From Betaproteobacteria bacterium (lineage in GTDB: Bacteria > Pseudomonadota > Gammaproteobacteria > Burkholderiales > Burkholderiaceae_E), in the NCBI GenBank assembly GCA_016868375.1, contig VGHA01000003.1, positions 1 through 64,000 on the forward strand: DNA of 64,000 bases, written 5' to 3'. The notes under the pieces are model-generated. The model was not told the origin of the DNA. It was given only the letters and a program-made list of their open reading frames with translations, and made no database searches. Positions 228-14,737 of the stretch are shown piece by piece. A program made the position numbers and the translations under genes. The first letter of the stretch is position 1; each line of letters starts with the position of its first letter.

Positions 228-287
228 CAACCGCGCTCATTTTAAAACCAAGAATGACGCCTACCACAGGCGCCGGGGAGACTGCAG

Positions 288-977
288 TTGGCGTCAGACT
301 TCGATCCCATCGCCGACGCCCGGGCGGTGCACGACACCGTAGCCGCCGATGGTGTTGCCATTTTCAAGGCAGACGTTGGTTACGCAATCGTGGGCCACAC
401 CGAGCCTGCCATCCGCCGCATTTACGAAGCCAAAAACCGCAGTTTCTCCAAGCCTTGCGGCATGTTCGGTTCGTGGGCGATCTTTCAGGAAATCATCGAG
501 ATCGATGAGCGCGCGCGCGACTACGTCCGAGCGGTCATCTTTGACCACGGCTTGCCGATCTCGGTGGTCGCGCCCTTCCGAGCGGACCATCCTTTCTTTC
601 GATCGGTTGCCCCGTTCGTGCTGGCCAATGCCTCCAAGGCCGGCACCATGGACGTGCTGATGAATGCCGGCCCCACGCACGACGAGATTGCTCGCATCGC
701 TCTTGCCGAGTCCCGACCGGTCTTCGGATCGTCCGCCAACCGATCGCTTGCGGGGAGCAAGTTCGTATTCGGCGACATCGAGCCCGAGGTGCTTGCCGCG
801 ACCGACCTCACCCTCGACCGGGGCAATAGCCGCTACAGCAACGACCGCGGCTTGGGATCGAGCATCATCGATCTGCGTGACTTCAAGCCGGTACGGATCG
901 GCATCTGTTTCACCGAATTGCAGGCCGTTGCGAGCAAGCACTTCGGCATCGAGATCCCGAATCAGGTCGCCAGCTGA
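288..977 (+). CDS. Diverged Sua5/YciO/YrdC-domain protein
   Basis: A protein of 229 residues with the outline of a YrdC domain. The family's KxRxxxKP stretch is kept as KNRSFSKP near residue 49, the STSAN motif as SSAN at 148-151, and the later S-x-I-D motif as SSIID at 191-195. The entry motif PT(D/E)TVYGL is altered to KADVGYAIVG and the conserved R-x-P segment is not recognisable, so tRNA threonylcarbamoyl-AMP synthesis is doubtful. The start is TTG, chosen because GGGGAG lies seven bases upstream. It precedes an amidase and an MmgE/PrpD gene on the same strand, which suggests a catabolic role on a carbamoyl or acyl substrate rather than tRNA modification. Confidence 0.7.
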   Translation: MASDFDPIADARAVHDTVAADGVAIFKADVGYAIVGHTEPAIRRIYEAKNRSFSKPCGMFGSWAIFQEIIEIDERARDYVRAVIFDHGLPISVVAPFRADHPFFRSVAPFVLANASKAGTMDVLMNAGPTHDEIARIALAESRPVFGSSANRSLAGSKFVFGDIEPEVLAATDLTLDRGNSRYSNDRGLGSSIIDLRDFKPVRIGICFTELQAVASKHFGIEIPNQVAS

Positions 978-1033: not shown

Positions 1034-2371
1034 TTGACGCGCGAGTGGCTCGTGATCGAACCTCCTGACTCATCCGCACGCTTGTCGGCTTGCGACGGGC
1101 TGGCCGGGCAGGCCGGCGGGGATCTCACCGCAGTGAGATGGGTTGAGGCTTGTCTGGATCGGATCGCGGCCCGCGATCCTCTGATCCGCGCCTGGACGCA
1201 TCTGGACCCAGAGCGCGCCCGTGCGGCCGCCCACGACACTGACCGATCAGCACCCGGGTCCGCGCCGCTCAGAGGTCTGCCCATCGGGGTGAAGGACGTC
1301 ATCGACGTGGCCGCCATGCCCACGCGCTGCAACGCTTGGGCAACAGACCCCGATCCGGTTCGATTCGACGCCGAGTGCATCGAGCGAGTGCGCAAAGCCG
1401 GGGCGATTCCGGTGGGCAAGACGGTCACGACTGAATTTGCGTTCACCGAACCGGGGCCGACCGTCAACCCGCACGACACGCGCCGCACACCTGGGGGCTC
1501 ATCCTCCGGGTCTGCAGCGGCCGTTGCGGATTTTCACGTGCCGGTTGCGCTCACCACCCAGACCGGCGGTTCGACGATCCGGCCGGCCGCCTACTGCGGC
1601 GTGGTCGGCTACAAGCCCCCCTTCGGTCATGTTCCGACGCGTGGTCTGCATTATCTGGCCCCCTCGATGGATCACATCGGCCTGCACGCGCGTTCCGTTG
1701 CCGATATCGCCCGGGTCGCGACCGTGCTCGAGGCCCGAACCCGTCCGGCGGACCCCCAAGCGCCGCTGCGACTGGTCCGGCTCGCCTTGCCGGCGGGCGT
1801 CGCATGCCAGCCGCAGGTTCAATCGCTCATCGACCGTGCGTGCGACCGCCTCGCAGCTTCCGGGATCGAGATCCTGCAACAAGCGCCGCTGGAAGAATTC
1901 GATCGGATCGACGACGCCCACCGCGTCCTGATGGCCGCAGAGGTCGCGCGCACGCTCTCGAGATGGAGCGCCGAAGCGCTCGCAAGTTTCAGCGAAAGTC
2001 TTCGATCATTTATCGCCAAGGGTCAGGCCGCAACCGAGGACGACCTTGCCTATGCCCGAGCCCGTGTCGCGCGAATCGCGCAGCGTCTTTACCCTTTCGC
2101 CGAGGCGGGAGCGCTGCTGATCGGCCCCGCGACGCTCGAGACCGCCCCCCTGGGCATTCGATCAACGGGCAACGCACTCCTCAACCGACCCTGGTCTCTG
2201 CTGGGCCTGGGCGCGATCACGATTCCCGCCGGCGTGGCCGAAGATGGCCTGCCAGTCGGCTTGCAGATCGTCGATCCCCACCCATCGGCCGATCGTCTCT
2301 TCCCGACGGCGAGATTCGTCGAAAACGTGCTTAGCACCCGAACCGTACCCCATCAGGAGGACATGACTTGA
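1034..2371 (+). CDS. Amidase signature family hydrolase
   Basis: About 445 residues of the amidase signature family, which hydrolyses C-N amide bonds with a Ser-cisSer-Lys triad. The catalytic Lys is visible in GVKDV (Lys87), the Gly/Ser-rich loop GGSSSGS at 154-160 carries the cis-Ser, and the nucleophile is Ser180 in TQTGGSTIRP. The substrate cannot be read from sequence. The start at 1034 is TTG and uncertain; a later GTG is possible. The stop overlaps the TTG start of the next gene (ttga), so the two are translationally coupled. It shares the strand with the YrdC-like gene 56 bases upstream. Confidence 0.85.
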   Translation: MTREWLVIEPPDSSARLSACDGLAGQAGGDLTAVRWVEACLDRIAARDPLIRAWTHLDPERARAAAHDTDRSAPGSAPLRGLPIGVKDVIDVAAMPTRCNAWATDPDPVRFDAECIERVRKAGAIPVGKTVTTEFAFTEPGPTVNPHDTRRTPGGSSSGSAAAVADFHVPVALTTQTGGSTIRPAAYCGVVGYKPPFGHVPTRGLHYLAPSMDHIGLHARSVADIARVATVLEARTRPADPQAPLRLVRLALPAGVACQPQVQSLIDRACDRLAASGIEILQQAPLEEFDRIDDAHRVLMAAEVARTLSRWSAEALASFSESLRSFIAKGQAATEDDLAYARARVARIAQRLYPFAEAGALLIGPATLETAPLGIRSTGNALLNRPWSLLGLGAITIPAGVAEDGLPVGLQIVDPHPSADRLFPTARFVENVLSTRTVPHQEDMT

Positions 2372-3744
2372 ACGATACCGCTCAACTTGACCGCAGGATC
2401 GTCGAATTCGCAGCCTCGACCCGCTTCGAAGACCTGCCCGCGCATGCGGTGCGTGCTGCGCAGATGCGCGTGCTCGACTCGATCGGTGTGGCGATCGCGG
2501 CCTGGAACGCGCCGCCCTCGAAAATCGCGCGCAAGATGGCCCAACCCTCCGTCGGTCCGATGTCGGCCCGGGTATGGGGCTCACAGATGCGCACCACGGT
2601 CGATATGGCCGCGTTTGCCAATGGCGTGATGGTTCGTTACCTGGACCTCAACGATGCGTGGCGCACCCGCGATGCCCATCACCCGTCCGACTACCTGCCG
2701 GGCATCCTGGCGGTGGCCGAGGCCTGCGGGCGATCAGGTCGCGAATTCATCACCGCGCTCGCGGTGGCCTACGAAATCATGTGCCGCTTCACCGACGTGG
2801 CACCGCTCAATTCAGCCGGGTGGGATCAACCGGTCACCGGCATCATGGGCACAGCGATGGGTGCCGGACGGCTGCTTGGCCTGGACCGCGAGGCACTGCA
2901 GCATGCGCTCGCGCTCGCGATCACGCCCAACCTTTGCACCTATCAGACGCGCGCGGGCGAACTGTCGATGTGGAAGGGGTGCGCGGGGCCCAATGGCGCG
3001 CGCAACGGCGTTTTCGCTGCGATGCTGGCCGCGGAAGGTCTCACCGGACCCTACGATTGCTTCGACGGTGTATTCGGGTTCTGGAACCAGACCCTCAAGG
3101 GCGAGCGCTACCCGGTCAGTCTGCCCGACGGATCGAGCGACTGGCGCTGGGGCGTGTTTCAGACCAATATCAAGACCTACCCGGTCCGTGATTCCTGCCA
3201 GTTGCCGATCATGACTGCGCTGAAGTTGCGCGAGACCATTGACCCAGCCGCAATCCGCTCGCTGCGGATCGACACCTACAAGTCAGCCTGGGAAGGCGCG
3301 GTCAAGGATCGCGAACTCTGGGCGCCACGCACGCGCGAGACAGCCGACCATTCGATGCTGTTCTCGGTTGTATGTACTCTGATTGACGGCGAACTCAGCA
3401 TTCACAGCTTCGAGCGCGGCCGTTTCCTGGACGCTGACGTGCTCGACCTGATTGGACGCACCGAAGTGGTGGTGCTCGATGAGTTCACCCGCGCGACACC
3501 CGGTGAACGCAAATGCCGGATCACGGCGACATTGGCCGACGGCCGGACGGTAAGCGCCGATCACATGGTGACGCTCGCCCAGATCGAAGCGGGGATGAGC
3601 GATGACGAACTCGAGCGCAAGTTCGTCGAATGCACTCGGGGCTTTTTTGATGAGCGCCGCCAGGAGCAACTGATCGCTGCGACCCGCAAGCTGCATGAGT
3701 CCGAACGCGTGGACGATCTGCTCGACCTGATTCGCGTGGCGTGA
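2368..3744 (+). CDS. MmgE/PrpD family protein
   Basis: A protein of 458 residues resembling the MmgE/PrpD family, which includes 2-methylcitrate dehydratase and iminodisuccinate epimerase. The N-terminal RVLDSIGVAIAAW segment and the later GMSDDELERKF segment are typical of the family. AGGAGG lies seven bases before the TTG start; the nearer ATG at 2363 meets a stop after two codons. It is coupled to the upstream amidase. Family members outside the methylcitrate cycle often sit in catabolic operons with unknown substrates, and a second amidase/MmgE pair occurs at 27.1-29.9 kb. Confidence 0.85.
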   Translation: MNDTAQLDRRIVEFAASTRFEDLPAHAVRAAQMRVLDSIGVAIAAWNAPPSKIARKMAQPSVGPMSARVWGSQMRTTVDMAAFANGVMVRYLDLNDAWRTRDAHHPSDYLPGILAVAEACGRSGREFITALAVAYEIMCRFTDVAPLNSAGWDQPVTGIMGTAMGAGRLLGLDREALQHALALAITPNLCTYQTRAGELSMWKGCAGPNGARNGVFAAMLAAEGLTGPYDCFDGVFGFWNQTLKGERYPVSLPDGSSDWRWGVFQTNIKTYPVRDSCQLPIMTALKLRETIDPAAIRSLRIDTYKSAWEGAVKDRELWAPRTRETADHSMLFSVVCTLIDGELSIHSFERGRFLDADVLDLIGRTEVVVLDEFTRATPGERKCRITATLADGRTVSADHMVTLAQIEAGMSDDELERKFVECTRGFFDERRQEQLIAATRKLHESERVDDLLDLIRVA

Positions 3745-3784: not shown

Positions 3785-4660
3785 TCACATCACGGGCGCG
3801 CTCACCTCCATTCGCCACTTGGAGGTGAGCCGCTGCAGCATCGTCACGCAAAACGAGATCGCTCCCGCCACGCACATGATCACGATCAGTCCGGCGAACA
3901 CGCCTGTGGAGTCGAGATTGTTCTGCGATCGTCGCAGCAGCCACCCCAGACCTGAACTGCCCACCACCAGTTCTCCGAATACCGCGCCCGTCACGGCATA
4001 GGGTACGGAGACCTGGAGTCCGGTGAACATGAAAACCCCAGCGGAAGGCAGTATCACCTTGCGAACGATGTCAAACCTGGACGCGCCCATCGTGCGGAGC
4101 AGGTTGATCAACGACGCCGGTACATCCCGCACGCCCGCGTAGGTCGTATAGAACACGATGAAGAACACAATCACCGAGGTGAGCGTGATCTTCATCGCCG
4201 CGCCGATGCCCAGCCAGATGATGAAAAGCGGCACCAGTGCCAGCCTCGGCAGACTGTAGAGCGCAGTCAGAAAGGGGCGGATGATCTCATCGAGCCAGAA
4301 GATCCGACCGAGCAACAGCGCAAGCACAATGCCGACGGCACCCCCAAGCAGAAACCCATACGCGGCCGAGAGCAGGGTCTCGATCGCGGTACCCACGATG
4401 GTGCCGTCGAGCAACCACTCCCAGAGCCTGATGGCAACATCGACGGGATTGCTGACGAAGAAGGGATCGATCCAGCGGTCGCTGGCGTATTGCCACAACC
4501 CCAGAAAGGCCAAGGGAAAGAGGATCTTCCCGACCCAGACCCACTGCCGCTGCCTGCGCCATGCGGCGATGGTTTCACGTCGGCCCTGCTCGATCCGCGC
4601 CCGCAAGGCCGGATCCTGATCGGGAACCGAATCGGTTGCAGGCGATGTCCGATCATTCAT
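3785..4660 (-). CDS. ABC transporter permease, NitT/TauT type
   Basis: An inner-membrane protein of 291 residues with about six hydrophobic segments and an EAA-type coupling loop near residue 190 (MGASRFDIVRKVILPS) that would contact the ATPase. This matches the SsuC/TauC-type permeases of the binding-protein-dependent family. A soluble N-terminal stretch of about 40 residues precedes the first membrane segment. Its ATG directly follows the TGA stop of the ATPase gene (tgaatg), so the three-gene operon is receptor, ATPase, permease. It converges with the MmgE/PrpD gene across 40 bases without a clear terminator. Confidence 0.9.
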   Translation of the reverse strand: MNDRTSPATDSVPDQDPALRARIEQGRRETIAAWRRQRQWVWVGKILFPLAFLGLWQYASDRWIDPFFVSNPVDVAIRLWEWLLDGTIVGTAIETLLSAAYGFLLGGAVGIVLALLLGRIFWLDEIIRPFLTALYSLPRLALVPLFIIWLGIGAAMKITLTSVIVFFIVFYTTYAGVRDVPASLINLLRTMGASRFDIVRKVILPSAGVFMFTGLQVSVPYAVTGAVFGELVVGSSGLGWLLRRSQNNLDSTGVFAGLIVIMCVAGAISFCVTMLQRLTSKWRMEVSAPVM

Positions 4661-5500
4661 TCAGTGCTCCTCGATGACCGGATTGGCCAGGCGCAACTCA
4701 TCGCGCAGACGATGACTCAGTTCGACGAAACGCGCGCTATAGCGAATCTCCTCGACATCGCGCGGGAAAGGCAGATCGATATCAATCCGGGCGCGGATCC
4801 TGCCAGGCCGCGAGGCAAACACATACACCTCCTGCGCAAGCGTCACCGCCTCATCGATATCGTGGGTGACAAAGACAACGGTCATCCCGCGCTCGCTCCA
4901 CAGTCGCAGAAATTCCGCATGCAGGCGCGCGCGCAACTGCGCATCGAGCGCACCGAAAGGCTCGTCCATCAACACCAGATTGGGGTTGGTGACGAGCACC
5001 CGCGCGAGCCCGACCCGCTTGCGCATGCCGCCTGACAATTCGCTGGGGAATGCGCGCTCGAAGCCCTGCAAGCCTACCTGATTAAGCACCTGCGCCACAC
5101 GCTCCTCGCGTTCGCGCGCAGGCACGCCCCTCACCTCGAGGGGCAATCCGACATTGGCGGCCACACGACGCCACGGCAGCAGACTGTCGTTCTGGGTGAC
5201 ATAGGCCGCCTGGGTATTGGGTGCCGTGATGGCCTGACCCTGATAGCGCACCACCCCTAGGCTGGGCGCAATCAGCCCGGCAAACATGTTCAGAAGCGTC
5301 GATTTGCCACAGCCCGAAGGTCCCAGCAGCGCGACGAAAGCGCCCCGCCGGACGCTCAGGCTCAAATCCTCGAGCGCGGTGACGAAGGACTTACGCTCAG
5401 GACTGTAGTACCAGTGGTGCACGCCCTCGGCACTCAGGATGGGACGACTCGGATCAAACTCAGCGTCTGACTGAGCCGACCGGCGCAGAAACCCCGTCAT
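4661..5500 (-). CDS. ABC transporter ATP-binding protein, NitT/TauT type
   Basis: 279 residues with all nucleotide-binding motifs: Walker A GPSGCGKS at 60-67, Q-loop Gln103, signature LSGGM at 155-159, Walker B ending in Asp179-Glu180, and the switch His213. It energises import with the adjacent permease. A longer open frame extends upstream, but the ATG at 5500 overlaps the receptor stop as ATGA and puts the domain at its usual N-terminal position, so this start is preferred. Confidence 0.92.
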   Translation of the reverse strand: MTGFLRRSAQSDAEFDPSRPILSAEGVHHWYYSPERKSFVTALEDLSLSVRRGAFVALLGPSGCGKSTLLNMFAGLIAPSLGVVRYQGQAITAPNTQAAYVTQNDSLLPWRRVAANVGLPLEVRGVPAREREERVAQVLNQVGLQGFERAFPSELSGGMRKRVGLARVLVTNPNLVLMDEPFGALDAQLRARLHAEFLRLWSERGMTVVFVTHDIDEAVTLAQEVYVFASRPGRIRARIDIDLPFPRDVEEIRYSARFVELSHRLRDELRLANPVIEEH

Positions 5501-6603
5501 GGATTGATCGTCTTGGCAGCCGAGGCGACCGAATCCAGGAAACGGTTGGTCATGATGTCGTCCATCCGGATGCGGGTGACGGGCGACAAGCCACCGGCCT
5601 TGCGGCCAAGGTTGGCCACTCTGAGCACCCGCTCGAAAGAGGCCTGCGTATAGCGATCGTCCGGATGCGCAAAACAAGGGTAGGTGAAATCAAACGCCTG
5701 ATCAAACACCTTCTCATTGAGCTTGGGGAACATCGTCTTGCGCGTGGAATCACGCACCGCCTGCCGCTCGCTCTGGACCCGCGCATTGGCCCACATCAAG
5801 CCCGCAACCACCCTCTGGACGAGTTCCGGATTGTCCAGCGCGAACTGGCGCGTCGTCATGATCGAGGTGTACGGAAAGCGGCTGTCCGGACCAAAACCCG
5901 GGAAGTCGCCGCCCGGCCCAGTGATCAGGCGATAACCCAGACCTTCGGACTCGAGCTGCTCACCGGGAGGGCTGCCACTGCTCAAGGCATCGATCTGCCC
6001 GGTACGGAACGCCGCCATCATCCCCGGAGCATTGTCGAGTTGGTTGAGCTTGACATCCTTCGCACTCAGCCCCGCCTCATCGAGCATCAACAGCACCCAG
6101 AGCCCTGCGCCCTGCGAGAGATTGGTGACGCCAATCCGCAGGCCCTTGAGCGCAGCGAGACGGTCCTTGAGCGGCGACTCGCGCGTGAGCTTGAAACGAT
6201 CGACGACCTCTTTCCGGACCACAAAGCTGTTGGTGTAGCAGGCGAGCATCGGCGCAACGGCGAGCAGATGGCGACCCGCCGCATGCGTCTTCACGGGCTC
6301 CATCGTGTTGCTTTCGATAAAGTCAACCTGCCGGCCGATCAGTCCCTCGACCTGAGCATTGAGGGTCACCATTTCGACATCAAGGCAGAGCCTATCGAAA
6401 ATGCCCGAGGCTTTCGCGTACTGTCCCGCAACGTAGATCAACACGTGCCCAGTATTGGCAATCCGGACCTTGTCCTTCTTCGCGCACTGGGACAGCACCT
6501 CGAGCGGCTTGAGATCGGGGGCACCAGGCTGGCCCAAGGCGGGCTGTTGCCCAAAAAGCGCAAGAACCACGGCACACGCCGCAGCAAGATGGAATCGGGC
6601 CAT
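5497..6603 (-). CDS. ABC transporter substrate-binding protein, NMT1/TauA-like
   Basis: A periplasmic receptor of 368 residues. It starts at the ATG at 6603, preceded by GGGAGGAG, which gives a clean Sec signal peptide (MARFHLAAACAVVLALF) with probable cleavage after ALG. The body shows NMT1/SsuA-like features, such as a segment on volume of interest LKGLRIGVTNLSQGAG for ligand-gated lobe closure. The ligand is not predictable, though context with an amidase and MmgE/PrpD suggests an organic acid or amide. Upstream at 6684-6695 lies the candidate operator shared with two other promoters. Confidence 0.88.
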   Translation of the reverse strand: MARFHLAAACAVVLALFGQQPALGQPGAPDLKPLEVLSQCAKKDKVRIANTGHVLIYVAGQYAKASGIFDRLCLDVEMVTLNAQVEGLIGRQVDFIESNTMEPVKTHAAGRHLLAVAPMLACYTNSFVVRKEVVDRFKLTRESPLKDRLAALKGLRIGVTNLSQGAGLWVLLMLDEAGLSAKDVKLNQLDNAPGMMAAFRTGQIDALSSGSPPGEQLESEGLGYRLITGPGGDFPGFGPDSRFPYTSIMTTRQFALDNPELVQRVVAGLMWANARVQSERQAVRDSTRKTMFPKLNEKVFDQAFDFTYPCFAHPDDRYTQASFERVLRVANLGRKAGGLSPVTRIRMDDIMTNRFLDSVASAAKTINP

Positions 6604-6683
6604 CGTCTCCTCCCTTGCATTCGTTATTGAACCTACGAGCCTCACGGACGGGTTTCGCTCCAGGGCATCGCGGATCGAATTCG

Positions 6684-6695
6684 AGTGTACACAGT
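6684..6695 (-). promoter_or_regulatory. Candidate operator ACTGTGTACACT
   Basis: Read on the minus strand this 12-mer differs from the 216-227 site at only two positions and is itself nearly palindromic around GTAC. It lies about 80 bases upstream of the receptor gene start at 6603, a normal distance for a repressor site near a promoter. The part of the 168-base gap not covered by this site, from 6604 to 6771, holds no gene that I can support. Confidence 0.5.
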
Positions 6696-6771
6696 GCACT
6701 CCCGAGGCGTCGAGGCCATTTGCACGTGCTCGCGCGGCTCCCGCAGTCGGCCAATACGTGAGGGACTCCCG

Positions 6772-7554
6772 TCAGAAAAGTCCTCCGCGCCAGGCCACGC
6801 CGCCATCCACCGTCAGGACAGTCCCGCTCACAAACGAAGCACGATCGGATGCGCCGAAAACGATCATGTTCGCAATCTCCTCAGGCGTGGCGGCGCGTCC
6901 AAAAGGCAAGGGCGCGGTGAGATCGGTCCAGCGCTGCGCATCGCCCAAGCGATCGGCCGCCTTGCGCTCCATCAGCATGATCAGACGCTCGGTCGCGGTA
7001 GGGCCGGGATTCACCCCGAGCACACGCACGCCATGGCGAGGACTGTCGGCGCCCAGCGCCCGGGTGAAATTCATCATGCCCGCATTGCAGACCGTACCGA
7101 TGATGATCTCGGGATCGGGGCGCTCGCCGCAATTGCCAATCACATTGACGATGACGCCGCTGCGCCTCTCACACATGCTGCGGTACACCTCACCAATCAG
7201 GAGCGCGGTCGAAATCACCTTGAGTCCAAGCCCCTCCTGCCAATCCGACTCGGTGACCGTCTCGATGGGTCCAGTAGGCGTGGCCCCGGCGTTGGTGACC
7301 AGCACATCGATTTCGCCGCACGCCCGCGCCAGTCGGGCGGGTTCGCCCGTGTGCATCAGGTCGCCCGTGTGCACCTGCGCAGACTTTGCCCCATGATCGA
7401 GCGCTTGGGCAGCAACCGCGCGAAGGTCAGCTTCATTTCGACCGGCAAGATGAAGCACACAGCCCTCAGCGGCAAAGCCCAGCACGGCCGCCCGACCGAT
7501 TCCCCGGGAAGCGCCGGTGATCAACACCGAACGACCCACAAGCCCCGTTTCCAT
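6772..7554 (-). CDS. SDR-family oxidoreductase lacking the canonical Tyr/Lys pair
   Basis: 260 residues with a Rossmann fold: cofactor motif TGASRGIG at 13-20, NAG at 88-90, and the late NPGPTATERL and SGTVLTVDGG segments. Where classical SDRs have Ser and YxxxK, this protein reads NVIGNCG and then GTVCN, so Gly153 and Asn157 fall at the Tyr and Lys positions. I recall a subgroup of annotated SDR proteins with a similar Gly/Asn-rich replacement, so this may be a subfamily trait rather than decay. AAGGGG lies eight bases before the ATG. It is divergent from the TRAP operon. Confidence 0.8.
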   Translation of the reverse strand: METGLVGRSVLITGASRGIGRAAVLGFAAEGCVLHLAGRNEADLRAVAAQALDHGAKSAQVHTGDLMHTGEPARLARACGEIDVLVTNAGATPTGPIETVTESDWQEGLGLKVISTALLIGEVYRSMCERRSGVIVNVIGNCGERPDPEIIIGTVCNAGMMNFTRALGADSPRHGVRVLGVNPGPTATERLIMLMERKAADRLGDAQRWTDLTAPLPFGRAATPEEIANMIVFGASDRASFVSGTVLTVDGGVAWRGGLF

Positions 7555-7671
7555 TTCAATACCCCTTTGAGAATTCAGAGATCTCGAATGCGCGGAAGCG
7601 CTTGGCTGCTGACGACTCCCGAGCGAGACCGGGCTCGAGTAGCAGGCTGCGAATCCGCGACTCGAAATCCG

Positions 7672-7683
7672 TCTGTGTACAAG
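7672..7683 (+). promoter_or_regulatory. Candidate operator TCTGTGTACAAG
   Basis: Third instance of the TGTGTACA core, in the 268-base divergent region between the SDR gene and the TRAP receptor gene, about 140 bases before the DctP start. The outer bases are less symmetrical than in the other two sites. Nothing else recognisable is seen in this intergenic stretch apart from the GAGGAGAGGG ribosome binding site of dctP at 7808-7817. Confidence 0.4.
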
Positions 7684-7822
7684 CCAGATGTTTGGTGTTT
7701 AAATCCAGACGCTCCGAACCATTGTGCCGAAAAGGTGCGAGCCGTGGCATTCGGGATCGATGCACATCTACAACCGAAGCCCGTTTTGAATGAGGCTTCG
7801 ATCAGCTGAGGAGAGGGATCTC

Positions 7823-8875
7823 ATGACTTCAAGCCTTACGAAGGGGGCCGCCCCCATCGCTTCTGTAGCTCGTCGAGACTCAATGCGCCGTTTGGGCGCG
7901 GCTTCGGCTGTACTCGCAGCACCCTCGCTCGTTAAGGCGTCGGGACGACTCCGCTATCTGAAGCCGATCGTCGCTGGCCTCAATGCCAAGGAAGGCGATC
8001 CGTCGTACATCTCCATTGCGCGGATCCCGCAGATCCTCAAGGAAAAATACGAGGTTGATCTCGAGCTGCGCGTCCACCCGAGCTCGGCCCTCGGAACAGA
8101 CCTGTCGCAGCTCGAAGCGGTCCAGACCGGCTTCATCGACATCACCAGTAACGTCACGGGCCAGTTCGCGCAGTTCTCCAACGCGTTCACCTTCGTTGAT
8201 CTGCCCTATGCGATCACCAGCTGGGACATGGGCGCCAGGCTGTTCAGCTCCGATCTGTGGCGCGACCAGGCTCGGCGATTCGAGTCCCAGACGCCGCTGG
8301 TCGTCCTGCCTCCCGTTGGCGCAGGCGGATTCAGGCTGCTCTGGAATAGCCGTCGGGCGCTGCCTGCCCCTGACGCAGTCAAGGGGCTCAAATTTCGGAC
8401 CACGACTTCGCCAGCCGAGATCGCTCTCATCCGGGCCTGGGGTGGGAGCCCGACTCCGCTTGCCTGGACCGAAACCTACAATGGCCTCAAGAACGGACTC
8501 GTCGACGGCATGCACGTCCAGCCGATCTGGACGTTTGGCTTCAAGATGCATGAAGTCCTGCGCCATGCGACCGCCGTCGACTCGATTTTCGCGGTGCAGT
8601 TCCAGGTGATGAATCGCAATTCATTCAATGCCATGCCGGCCGCGATCCGCGAACGCTTTATGAAAGCAGCGGCCGAGGCGGCGGCGGAGGCCAACGCGCT
8701 CGACCGCAAGCTCGAGTCCGAATTTACTGCCAAACTCACAGCCGAAAAAATGGAGATTTATCGACCGTCGGCTGCAGAGATGCAGGCTTGGCGCACGCGC
8801 GGCGAGTCGGTCTGGCAAACCGAGGCCAAAGGTATCGACAAATCGGTGCTCGACCGGATGGTGGCGCTGCGTTGA
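7823..8875 (+). CDS. TRAP transporter solute-binding protein, DctP family
   Basis: 350 residues starting at the ATG at 7823, five bases after GAGGAGAGGG. The N-terminus carries an arginine pair (ARRDSMRRLGAASAVLAAPS), compatible with a Tat-type or unusual Sec signal. The core matches DctP receptors, including a carboxylate-clamp region around GLKFRTTTSPAEIALIRAWG and the NGLVDGMHVQP segment. It delivers a carboxylate-type substrate to DctQM. It heads an operon dctP-dctQ-dctM-monooxygenase. Confidence 0.88.
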   Translation: MTSSLTKGAAPIASVARRDSMRRLGAASAVLAAPSLVKASGRLRYLKPIVAGLNAKEGDPSYISIARIPQILKEKYEVDLELRVHPSSALGTDLSQLEAVQTGFIDITSNVTGQFAQFSNAFTFVDLPYAITSWDMGARLFSSDLWRDQARRFESQTPLVVLPPVGAGGFRLLWNSRRALPAPDAVKGLKFRTTTSPAEIALIRAWGGSPTPLAWTETYNGLKNGLVDGMHVQPIWTFGFKMHEVLRHATAVDSIFAVQFQVMNRNSFNAMPAAIRERFMKAAAEAAAEANALDRKLESEFTAKLTAEKMEIYRPSAAEMQAWRTRGESVWQTEAKGIDKSVLDRMVALR

Positions 8876-8892
8876 TCCGAGCCTGACTACCG

Positions 8893-9420
8893 ATGCGAGC
8901 GATCGCGGCGACCGCTGCCCGGATCGTTGCTCTGAGTAACGGTCTGGCAGCGGCGCTGGTACTAACGATCTTCTCGGCCATGGCCGTTCAGGTTGTCAGC
9001 CGCTACGTCTTCAACAGCTCGGTCTTTTGGGCGGACGACGTCGCGATATGGGGCATGGCTTGGCTGGTGATGTTGGCCTGCGTGGGACTGTGCTTCGACT
9101 GGAAACACATTCATGTGCCCGCCCTCGTGAATGCGTTGCCCGTAAGGCCCCGCCAGTTGACGATCATGCTCTCTCAGGCGTTGACCCTCGGCCTCCTGGT
9201 TGCCTTGGCCTGGTATGGATTCCAGGTCGTTGGCGGAACTTTTCACAGGGTGACCCCGGGCCTGGGCTTGTCGACCCGATGGTTCAAGCTCGCCATCCCT
9301 TTTTGTGCCTTGCTGTCGGCGATCGTCGTGGCCGCCCGGCTTGCGGCCGATTTCTTTGCGTGGCGCCGCGGCGATCATGCGCATTTCGCTGGCTATGGCC
9401 AATCGGGCTCAGCAGACTGA
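8893..9420 (+). CDS. TRAP transporter small permease, DctQ
   Basis: A four-helix membrane protein of 175 residues. The first helix is LAAALVLTIFSAMAVQVVSR, followed by the family hallmark RYVFNSSVFWADDVAIWGMAWLVMLA. It bridges the receptor and the large permease in the inner membrane. It begins 17 bases after dctP and ends four bases before the preferred dctM start. Confidence 0.88.
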   Translation: MRAIAATAARIVALSNGLAAALVLTIFSAMAVQVVSRYVFNSSVFWADDVAIWGMAWLVMLACVGLCFDWKHIHVPALVNALPVRPRQLTIMLSQALTLGLLVALAWYGFQVVGGTFHRVTPGLGLSTRWFKLAIPFCALLSAIVVAARLAADFFAWRRGDHAHFAGYGQSGSAD

Positions 9421-9424
9421 TGAC

Positions 9425-10723
9425 ATGACCAACGTCCTGATCTATCTTGTCTTGCCGTTCCTGGGTTCAATTTTGATCGGCGTCCCGGTCGTTTTTGCGA
9501 TCGGGATTGGCTGTTTCGTTTTTCTTGCCTTCTCCGGCACCACGATCCCCATGCTGGTGCTGGTGACCGAGATGGCCTCGGGCCTGGACTCTTATGCGCT
9601 GCTGGCGCTGCCCGCCTTTGTGATGACCGGCGAACTGCTCAATCGCTGCGGGCTCACCGACCGGCTCGTCAACCTCGCCAATGCGGCAGTCGGCTGGATC
9701 CGGGGCGGTCTGGCCCATGTGACCACCGTGACCGGCATGCTGCTCGCGACCATCAGCGGATCCGCGCTCGCCGACGCCGCGACGCTTGGGCCCGTCGTCA
9801 TCCCTGCCATGATCCGCGAACGCTTCCCGCCTGGCTTCGCTGCGGCGATCACGGCAGCGGCCGCATGCATCGGCGCGATCATTCCGCCCAGCGTCCCCCT
9901 GGTCATCATCGGCAGCCAACTCGGCATGTCGATTGGCGGCCTGTTTCTCGCCGGCGTGATCCCGGGCCTGTTGACTGGTATCGCATTGATGATCACTTCC
10001 TGGCTGCTTTGCCGGTTCCGCGGGTTTGGCGCGCCGCGACCGTTCGAGGGGGTGAGCGCACTCGGCCGGCACAGCATACGGGCCCTTCCTGCCTTGACCA
10101 TCCCGGCGATCATCCTGGGGGGCATCCTGGGCGGGGTCTTCTCGCCCACCGAGGCCGGCGTCATCGCGGTGATGTATACAACGATCCTCGGGACGCTCGT
10201 CTACCGTAATCTGAGCCTTCGGTCATTCGGCGAGGCGCTGATGTCGACTGCGCAGATCACTGGAGCGGCGGTCATCATTGTTGCGATTTCGCTGGTGATG
10301 GGGCGCATTCTGGCCTTCGAACAGATCCCGAACAAACTGGTCGCACTCATGAGTGGCATCACCACCGAGCCGGTTCTGGTCTTTCTGATTGTGGTGATTC
10401 TTTTGCTCGTTGTTGGCTGCGTGATGGATGCTGTGGCCAACATGATCATTCTCGGCCCCCTGCTGATGCCGATCTGTACCCAGTTGCTCGAGATGCAGTC
10501 CTTTCAATACGGCGTTTTTCTGATGTACGCACTTTTGATCGGGCTGCTCACGCCGCCATTAGGTCTGGCACTCTTTGTCGTCGCGCCGATTGCCAAAGTC
10601 TCGGCCGAGCAGATCTCGCTCGCGGTGATTCCCTTGATCGCAGCCATGCTCATTGTTCTGACCATGATCTCCTTCTTCCCAGCGCTCACGATGTGGCTTC
10701 CGACGGTCGCGGGCTACAAGTGA
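9425..10723 (+). CDS. TRAP transporter large permease, DctM
   Basis: 432 residues, almost entirely hydrophobic, with about 12 transmembrane segments and the DctM hallmarks GPVVIPAMIRE, IIPPSVPLVIIG and GVFSPTEAGVIAVMYT. It is the sodium-coupled transport subunit. An open frame extends to 9305 within dctQ, but the ATG at 9425 follows the dctQ stop by four bases and gives the usual N-terminus (MTNVLIYLVLPF); the ATG at 9395 is an alternative. Its stop overlaps the next start as TGATG. Confidence 0.9.
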   Translation: MTNVLIYLVLPFLGSILIGVPVVFAIGIGCFVFLAFSGTTIPMLVLVTEMASGLDSYALLALPAFVMTGELLNRCGLTDRLVNLANAAVGWIRGGLAHVTTVTGMLLATISGSALADAATLGPVVIPAMIRERFPPGFAAAITAAAACIGAIIPPSVPLVIIGSQLGMSIGGLFLAGVIPGLLTGIALMITSWLLCRFRGFGAPRPFEGVSALGRHSIRALPALTIPAIILGGILGGVFSPTEAGVIAVMYTTILGTLVYRNLSLRSFGEALMSTAQITGAAVIIVAISLVMGRILAFEQIPNKLVALMSGITTEPVLVFLIVVILLLVVGCVMDAVANMIILGPLLMPICTQLLEMQSFQYGVFLMYALLIGLLTPPLGLALFVVAPIAKVSAEQISLAVIPLIAAMLIVLTMISFFPALTMWLPTVAGYK

Positions 10724-13983: not shown

Positions 13984-14196
13984 GGTGTTCCGTCCTATTT
14001 TTCCCCCACGGTTCCCCACACGCGATGTGTGAGCAGCCGTGAGCGGCGTTGATAAGCACGGTAAAGCCATGGGGCCCCAACAGCCCACGCCGGAATTACT
14101 TATTGCCGGTTTTCAGAGATAGGAGGGCGTCGGCGGGGTGACCACGATGACGCTACGCCTGCCTACGCTTGCCAAGGCTTCACCGAAGCCTTAGTT

Positions 14197-14312
14197 GACA
14201 CAAACTCGCTCGCGTACGCTCGCTCAGACAGGTGTCCGCCCAGCGGGAAAGCGCATGCGCTTTCCCTCCCGCCCGTCGCCTACTCGCCTCGGCTGGCCAG
14301 ACTCACCGCCCC
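14197..14312 (+). repeat. Dispersed GC-rich repeat, module 1, copy A
   Basis: About 116 bases beginning GACACAAACTCGCTCGC and ending near GCCAGACTC. It contains a perfect 22-base palindrome at 14245-14266 with centre GCGCATGCGC. The same module occurs inverted at 33173-33286, with the palindrome shortened to 20 bases by matched changes on both arms. It lies upstream of the VapBC pair and contains no supported gene. Confidence 0.75.
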
Positions 14313-14382
14313 CCAGCTCCCGCCCCGGCCTCAGGCCACGCCGTTGGGCTTCGCTGTTGGTAGGAGGTGCGGGACGCGCAGC

Positions 14383-14442
14383 GCCGGCGCAGCCAGTCGA
14401 GCCCCCGCAGCCCCCCACCCCCCGGCCGACGACGCTCGCGAA
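14383..14442 (+). repeat. Dispersed GC-rich repeat, module 2, copy A
   Basis: About 60 bases that include AGCCAGTCGAGCCCCCGCAG and GGCCGACGACGCTCGCGAA. From 14391 it matches 15224-15274 except for a one-base difference in a C run. A weaker copy is at 33341-33381. With the module-1 copy it fills most of the 500-base gap between the integrase remnant and the antitoxin gene. Confidence 0.75.
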
Positions 14443-14458
14443 CCTGGCGAAATACGTT

Positions 14459-14487
14459 AGTATTACCAATATAAACTCTGTAATACT
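14459..14487. promoter_or_regulatory. Inverted repeat upstream of the AbrB-type antitoxin, likely autoregulatory operator
   Basis: Perfect eight-base arms AGTATTAC (14459-14466) and GTAATACT (14480-14487) are separated by 13 bases and end ten bases before the antitoxin ATG. The segment is AT-rich in a GC-rich setting, as expected for a promoter. Antitoxins of this class usually repress their own operon by binding such repeats. Confidence 0.6.
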
Positions 14488-14497
14488 CGAGTAACCT

Positions 14498-14737
14498 ATG
14501 CCCACCTCAATCACCGTCAAAGGCCAGGTCACGATCCCCAAGCAGATCCGCGACGCCTTAGGCCTCAGGCCGGGATCTTCGGTCGACTTCACGGTCAATC
14601 GCGATGGCGAAGTGGTCATCCACAAGGCGAAAGATCTGTCTAGGCGGAAGCTCGATCGCTTTGACTCGGTTCGTGGAAGAGCGGACGTGAAGTGGCGAAC
14701 CAAAGATCTGATGGCACTTCTGCGCGGCGATGCCTGA
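14498..14737 (+). CDS. vapB: AbrB/MazE-family antitoxin (VapB-type)
   Basis: 79 residues with a SpoVT/AbrB swapped-hairpin DNA-binding domain at the N-terminus: TSITVKGQVTIPKQIRDALG and GSSVDFTVNRDGEVVI. The charged C-terminal third (KDLSRRKLDRFDSVRG onward) is the likely toxin-binding tail. The stop overlaps the toxin start as TGATG. It is expected to neutralise the PIN toxin and repress the operon through the inverted repeat at 14459-14487. Confidence 0.9.
   Translation: MPTSITVKGQVTIPKQIRDALGLRPGSSVDFTVNRDGEVVIHKAKDLSRRKLDRFDSVRGRADVKWRTKDLMALLRGDA

Follow-up and report, generated by a model that had tools for sequence, protein, structure and literature searches.

A candidate subfamily of YrdC-fold proteins in catabolic gene clusters, possibly adenylating an acid or carbamate outside tRNA modification

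A diverged YrdC-fold gene near the start of a 64,000-nucleotide stretch of contig VGHA01000003.1 (the window), from a betaproteobacterial metagenome-assembled genome (MAG), tentatively points to a distinct subfamily of this fold, separate from TsaC/Sua5 and YciO, whose members would adenylate a carboxylate or carbamate intermediate in the breakdown of amides or imides and would not act in t6A synthesis; we hold the two parts of this proposal, taken together, with somewhat less than even confidence. TsaC-type enzymes start a universal tRNA modification by adenylating the carboxylate of N-carboxy-threonine, and the adenylate made by a YrdC protein is usually used by Kae1/TsaD.

PF01300 is the sole Pfam domain of the window protein (E 6.5e-9; score 36 bits, cut-off 25.1) and places it in the superfamily; its 229 residues have no C-terminal SUA5 domain, and the Pfam search revealed no fused Kae1 domain. 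The NCBIfam model of threonylcarbamoyl-AMP synthase, TIGR00057, gives it 27.2 bits, far under the cut-off of 123.2. The TTG start aligns with the starts of close homologues. Since the contig starts with the window itself, only 287 bp precede the gene, and the surroundings of the gene can be seen on the downstream side only (Table 1). There the gene is followed, as stated in a preliminary description made from the DNA sequence, by an amidase (PF01425) gene and then an MmgE/PrpD gene; both are on its strand, and their ORFs overlap by 4 bp. The amidase scores under the NCBIfam cut-offs for all models among the matches listed (25 of 27), and the MmgE/PrpD protein under those for PrpD. Gene calls begin at the first possible codon, which makes some ORFs overlong.

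Table 1. Features of the window discussed in the text; counts refer to 57 diverged rows and 24 TsaC/Sua5 comparators.
Feature	Position	Strand	Remarks
Likely ribosome-binding site GGGGAG	275..280	+	7 nt 5' of the TTG; sequence reading
Diverged YrdC-fold protein	288..977	+	229 aa, TTG start; type A of the proposed subfamily
KADVGYAI, residues 27-34	366..389	+	At the PT(D/E)TVYGL place
K49-x-R51	432..440	+	KxR half of the catalytic tetrad; kept 57/57
K55	450..452	+	At the Pa-Sua5 Asn62 position; K/R 57/57 vs 2/24 comparators
F60	465..467	+	At the Pa-Sua5 His67 position; His 0/57 vs 22/24 comparators
L124-M125-N126	657..665	+	At the R-x-P place; Arg 0/57 vs 24/24 comparators; Asn126 53/57
SSAN, residues 148-151	729..740	+	SxN plus Ser148 (TsaC-type signature position); SxN 57/57
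R203-x-G205	894..902	+	Kept 57/57
Amidase-signature hydrolase	1034..2371	+	PF01425 E 1.4e-67; 445 aa as called, start codon uncertain
MmgE/PrpD-family protein	2368..3744	+	458 aa; PF03972 E 3.6e-77, PF19305 E 3.5e-27
ABC importer	3785..6699	-	Opposite strand to the YrdC-like gene; PF00528, PF00005, PF13379; starts uncertain
ABC permease	3785-4660	-	Part of the ABC importer
ABC ATPase	4661-5677	-	Part of the ABC importer
NMT1-like binding protein	5497-6699	-	Part of the ABC importer

The MAG (4.67 Mb in 390 contigs, 97.4% complete and 7.5% contaminated) contains five PF01300 genes. The one on contig C12 is of the Sua5 type by length and signature (353 aa, PTETVYGL and PSAN), and that on C61 is of the YciO type and adjoins a PHP-like gene which, judging from the ORF sequence, resembles rnm. 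The other three are diverged: the window gene, a 76% identical copy on C23 and a 35% identical one on C144. Given the level of contamination, single gene copies could derive from another organism. One TsaD-type match is also present, together with a partial PF00814 match, possibly TsaB. According to the preliminary description, the absence of any other YrdC/Sua5 gene would have implied a housekeeping role; the genome has such a gene on C12, besides the YciO-type one on C61, and the window gene is not the housekeeping TsaC. Another 27 genomes carrying a diverged copy were searched with PF01300, and further copies turned up in 26; a reading of the sequences recognized a TsaC/Sua5-type protein in 25, including two cut by a contig end and, as the gene of G1032, the distant TsaC-like L101. 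The exceptions are G402, where the sole other copy is of the YciO type, and G1035, the MAG of L036, where the search found the diverged copy alone; gaps in the MAGs may explain both.

The motifs that the preliminary description took as kept and lost were read correctly: KNRSFSKP (residues 49-56), SSAN and SSIID (191-195) are all in the window protein, whereas the PT(D/E)TVYGL place retains the Asp and the Tyr, and the R-x-P place has none of its usual residues. Conservation was assessed over 57 diverged rows and 24 TsaC/Sua5 comparators, the latter including L037 and L038; nine of the 33 other rows (seven YciO-like, the SMU.1377c-like L040 and the distant TsaC-like L101) were set apart. Positions were matched to Pa-Sua5 from the alignment and the numbering given in a passage of PMC10321239. 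The KxR/SxN set, in a passage of PMC3223725 the signature of functional YrdC proteins, is complete in the diverged rows, S149 and N151 being kept in 57/57, as are Tyr32 and a Ser or Thr at position 148; S191 is kept in 55/57. By contrast, Thr28 is found in 1/57 diverged rows vs 24/24 comparators, Thr or Ser at position 30 in 0/57 vs 24/24, and Pro126 in 0/57 vs 22/24; Pro27, a Lys in the window protein, is kept in 43/57. As described in a passage of PMC10321239, His67 of Pa-Sua5 bonds the threonine hydroxyl, Asn62 contacts PPi and the ribose, and the Thr/Ser of the signature position contacts phosphate, also in TobZ and HypF. With KxR/SxN kept and several usual residues missing, the threonine-contacting His among them, the protein looks unaltered on the ATP side but changed in how it recognizes threonine, and the simplest reading of these alignments would be a kept nucleotide site with an altered acceptor site. 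The carbamoyl- or acyl-adenylate chemistry suggested in the preliminary description would agree with the kept set, which is no proof of turnover.

An AlphaFold2 model of the window protein, built on a 33-row alignment, shows the YrdC fold (mean pLDDT 95.3, pTM 0.91). Its top Foldseek match is SMU.1377c, an uncharacterised protein from Streptococcus mutans (3l7v, 3.2e-12), followed by Sua5 with threonine and AMPPNP (3aje, 7.5e-12). VIA-align gave Z 23.1 for 3l7v (rmsd 2.6, 220 aligned), 21.6 for TsaC2 with TC-AMP (rmsd 2.5, 203 aligned), a value within the same range of 21-23 for Sua5, 19.1 for 1k7j (labelled YciO), up to 16.6 for HypF and about 10 for TobZ. SMU.1377c, the closest solved structure, is also the best profile match (E 5.1e-15) and, as judged from the alignments and its relative L040, shares VGY, KxRxxxKP, SSAN and the loss of R-x-P, but it is only 17% identical to the window protein. 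L040 itself, from G149, is an SMU.1377c-like YrdC protein with PTKVGY and without R-x-P; in a tree of 90 rows it joins the subfamily with support 98/90, through very long branches. The altered acceptor site may extend to this SMU.1377c-like group.

Public genomes, searched with all three copies of the MAG, yielded 29 loci, of which 26 belong to the subfamily and three (L034, L037 and L038, at 27-28% identity) were set aside as outside it. Going by record titles, the hosts of the 26 include Burkholderiales and other beta-proteobacteria as well as Alphaproteobacteria; one further host is a Gammaproteobacterium, and one is unplaced. The subfamily is rare, with 14/398 other genomes in the order sample, 1/397 in the phylum sample and 0/273 in the class sample, the last two counts excluding G149, a genome with a weak SMU.1377c-like match. 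Three of the 30 loci from the PF01300 search of the 27 genomes (L096, L097 and L102) gave no ORF by the motif filter. Removal of seven identical or contained diverged sequences left 90 rows, 57 diverged and 33 others, and in the resulting tree a single branch, with support 98/97, separates the diverged rows from the others. The diverged rows comprise a type B of 26 rows (94/84) and a type A of 31 rows that includes the window gene; type A was rejected as a clean clade, its branch having the weaker support of 90/64. Two diverged copies were found in 9 of the 27 other genomes (alike in G572) and one in 18. Pairing as a rule was likewise discarded given these 18 genomes and the three copies of the MAG, which do not support an obligate heterodimer, and the single copies suggest that each type can act alone. 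Azospirillum lipoferum Sp59b is a carrier of one such gene.

Between L010, L011 and L012, near-identical relatives carrying both types, dN is 0.008-0.018 vs a dS of 0.22-0.39 (dN/dS about 0.03-0.05), and on this basis the window gene is a real gene under purifying selection; the window copy itself, with dS 1.7-2.0, is too distant for a reliable estimate.

In G1026, G1027, G1029 and G1030, from Comamonadaceae, type A and type B stand at opposite ends of one conserved cluster. One strand encodes type A and an amidase; the other encodes a PrpD, a PuuE-like polysaccharide deacetylase, an ABC ATPase, a permease, an NlpA-type lipoprotein, a GntR/FCD regulator and type B, in some clusters with a glyoxalase-like gene between the last two. 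The PuuE-like deacetylase of L026 has 638 aa, its PuuE-like and deacetylase matches lying in different halves. Single genes missing from the gene calls at some of these loci were recovered by blastp on all ORFs; in the similar cluster of G1033, the amidase, permease and lipoprotein were recovered by blastp only. In G1029, a CoA-transferase III and an HMGL-like lyase come after type A. Other arrangements include the tandem pairs of L010-L012, with old-yellow-enzyme, TauD, DJ-1, amidase and deacetylase genes nearby, and the divergent pair of L014, beside HyuAB and a CoA-transferase, while further members are found near HyuAB, an MFS and amidohydrolase-3 pair, BKACE, thiolase, a Rieske protein or TctC. 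A single record among 72,556 in a plasmid collection, the same for each of two queries, carries two YrdC-like genes in tandem: CP063167, from Variovorax paradoxus VAI-C, with the genes at L137:13238-13984 and 13998-14732. On one flank of this pair lie an isocitrate-lyase/PEP-mutase-family gene and TctC, and on the other an acyl-CoA ligase and LeuC/LeuD; both proteins, which are outside the tree and the residue table, keep KxR and SAN.

The plasmid locus (L137:10351-18427 of CP063167.1) has a LeuCD-type dehydratase and an isocitrate-lyase-family protein where other clusters have PrpD and an HMGL-like lyase; these may be non-homologous enzymes catalysing the same two steps, hydration and C-C cleavage. 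In the MAG, the C144 copy (L007:2269-9905) lies beside a second PrpD, 52% identical to that of the window, with HyuA, HyuB and another amidase. The C23 paralogue (L006, G000:C23:16000-33000, 5624-10111) is found between tspO and a puf cluster in which Pfam recognizes two reaction-centre proteins and a cytochrome subunit; the MAG thus carries genes for anoxygenic photosynthesis. The tandem pair of L011 adjoins tspO, pucC and a UbiA-type (bchG-like) gene, and by similarity the neighbourhoods of L010 and L012 resemble it. The genome of L011 is labelled Bordetella parapertussis, a name that looks wrong for a MAG with photosynthesis genes.

As a control, 47 places with diverged copies (646 kb) were compared with 22 places at canonical copies (307 kb), leaving out the loci of places already counted (L018, L019, L026, L027, L028, L033, L111 and L113). 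The trio of amidase, PrpD and YrdC-like gene had been fixed beforehand, whereas the other reference proteins were mostly picked from diverged loci, which favours them. An amidase together with a PrpD was found near 14/47 diverged vs 0/22 canonical places, with P 0.002 as a guide only, since related species are counted separately and the reference neighbours come mostly from diverged loci. Taken singly, the amidase was near 17/47 vs 0/22, the deacetylase near 15/47 vs 0/22 and PrpD near 17/47 vs 3/22. TctC receptors, although prominent in the genomes of the order sample, were dropped as linked genes, being no commoner at diverged (16/47) than at canonical places (9/22). A TsaD/Kae1 partner was also abandoned, as phmmer with one TsaD sequence found no Kae1/TsaD-like gene in 56 loci up to E 10. 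The trio named in the preliminary description does recur in other genomes, and this recurrence, together with the separate Sua5-type gene, bears out its reading of a diverged, non-housekeeping gene in a catabolic cluster.

The same residues on the ATP side, another acceptor pocket, and clusters for opening amides and handling dicarboxylates would be most simply explained if these proteins adenylate another acid or carbamate. In the sequence of events that we infer, ATP, probably with Mg2+, would be bound through K49/R51, K55, S148-S149-N151 and R203, and the carboxylate or N-carboxy (carbamate) group of a pathway intermediate would be adenylated with release of PPi, in an acceptor pocket rebuilt for something other than threonine. 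This intermediate would probably arise when a cyclic amide or imide is ring-opened or deamidated, the first steps being performed by the PuuE-like deacetylase, the amidase or HyuAB, and the later ones consisting of hydration by PrpD or LeuCD and then C-C or CoA steps. Counting against the adenylation proposal, 33/47 diverged places are without the pair of amidase and PrpD, and the phmmer search of 56 loci with one TsaD sequence brought up no Kae1/TsaD-like user of an adenylate. The variety of neighbourhoods (HyuAB, amidohydrolase 3, thiolase, Rieske protein, BKACE, TctC) also implies that no single pathway fits all members.

A more specific version, which we regard as doubtful, is an adenylating YrdC-fold family dedicated to cyclic imide and amide catabolism, often as paired paralogues, with substrates that could include the maleimides of tetrapyrrole decay. 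The idea of maleimides arises from the one lineage with the pair beside tspO and photosynthesis genes, and from the suitability of a PuuE-like deacetylase (an imidase candidate), an amidase, a PrpD or LeuCD hydratase and C-C lyases for the breakdown of substituted maleates. Maleimides or tetrapyrroles as substrate were otherwise set aside, since among the paper titles listed on the subject none names a bacterial pathway with these genes. The open-access literature searched yielded no paper joining YrdC with PrpD and amidase, hydantoinase or MmgE, and the subfamily is not described in passages of PMC10321239, PMC3223725, PMC9654439 and PMC12506659.

Another explanation, in our judgement an unlikely one, is that the YrdC fold here binds a nucleotide or carboxylate without chemistry, as an accessory protein that stabilises or regulates the amidase, or as a sensor of ATP or a pathway ligand. 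Such a role would suit a gene that accompanies very different enzymes, and in L115 and L116 (Comamonadaceae) the amidase and type-A ORFs, as called, overlap by 10 bp, which suggests coupling. However, a non-catalytic copy would have no need of the four tetrad residues, found in 57/57 rows, and no amidase was found near 30/47 places.

Rather unlikely as well would be a transfer of the HypF/TobZ kind, where carbamoyl-AMP is made from the carbamoyl phosphate of ureide or amide breakdown and the carbamoyl group is handed on. HyuA and Kae1 belong to the same ATPase superfamily, and HyuA was found near 5/47 places, but not at the other 42. The YrdC domains of TobZ and HypF match the model with Z of about 10-17, use KxR/SxN according to a passage of PMC9654439, and have a phosphate-contacting Thr/Ser, in a passage of PMC10321239, that Ser148 matches. 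Carbamoyl-adenylate chemistry is a feature of HypF and TobZ, which share the fold and KxR/SxN with the window protein; however, their YrdC domains are fused to Kae1, whereas the window protein is a lone domain with neither a fused Kae1 nor a Kae1/TsaD-like neighbour found.

That the gene encodes an additional or a divergent TsaC, supplying t6A synthesis with threonylcarbamoyl-AMP, is improbable: even though it keeps the KxR/SxN signature of functional YrdC proteins (PMC3223725, in a passage), a Sua5-type gene is already in the genome, 56-57 of the 57 rows lack the His that contacts threonine, the two Thr of PT-E-T and R-x-P, the TIGR00057 score is below the cut-off, and the neighbours are catabolic. 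Despite the strong divergence from TsaC, it is hardly credible that the gene is a decayed, functionless paralogue that merely travels with catabolic genes, given the low dN/dS of L010-L012 (about 0.03-0.05), 20 invariant columns in the 33-sequence alignment and the recurrence in several cluster types.

COG0009 is subdivided into YrdC, Sua5 and YciO in a passage of PMC3223725. With TsaC/Sua5, the proposed subfamily shares the YrdC fold, KxR/SxN, RxG and a Ser/Thr at the TsaC signature position, but it differs in the loss of both Thr of PT-E-TVYGL, of R-x-P and of His67, in the window protein also in that of the SUA5 domain, and in having catabolic neighbours and coexisting with a Sua5-type gene. 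YciO, a TsaC paralogue of the same Pfam family, is not the in vivo t6A enzyme and is linked to rnm, as described in passages of PMC12506659. The seven YciO-type rows are without KxR/SxN, whereas the subfamily keeps both halves, and no rnm lies downstream of the window gene, the side in view, where the amidase and PrpD are found.

In the one annotated record, such genes bear only the name 'Sua5/YciO/YrdC/YwlC family protein', and there is therefore a risk of these proteins being mislabelled as tRNA-modification enzymes. If the adenylation proposal is true, they would constitute a further COG0009 subgroup, with the catalytic tetrad and without the threonine-contacting His, tied to catabolism rather than to RNA, and the subfamily would offer a test of YrdC-fold adenylation outside t6A synthesis and carbamoyl transfer.
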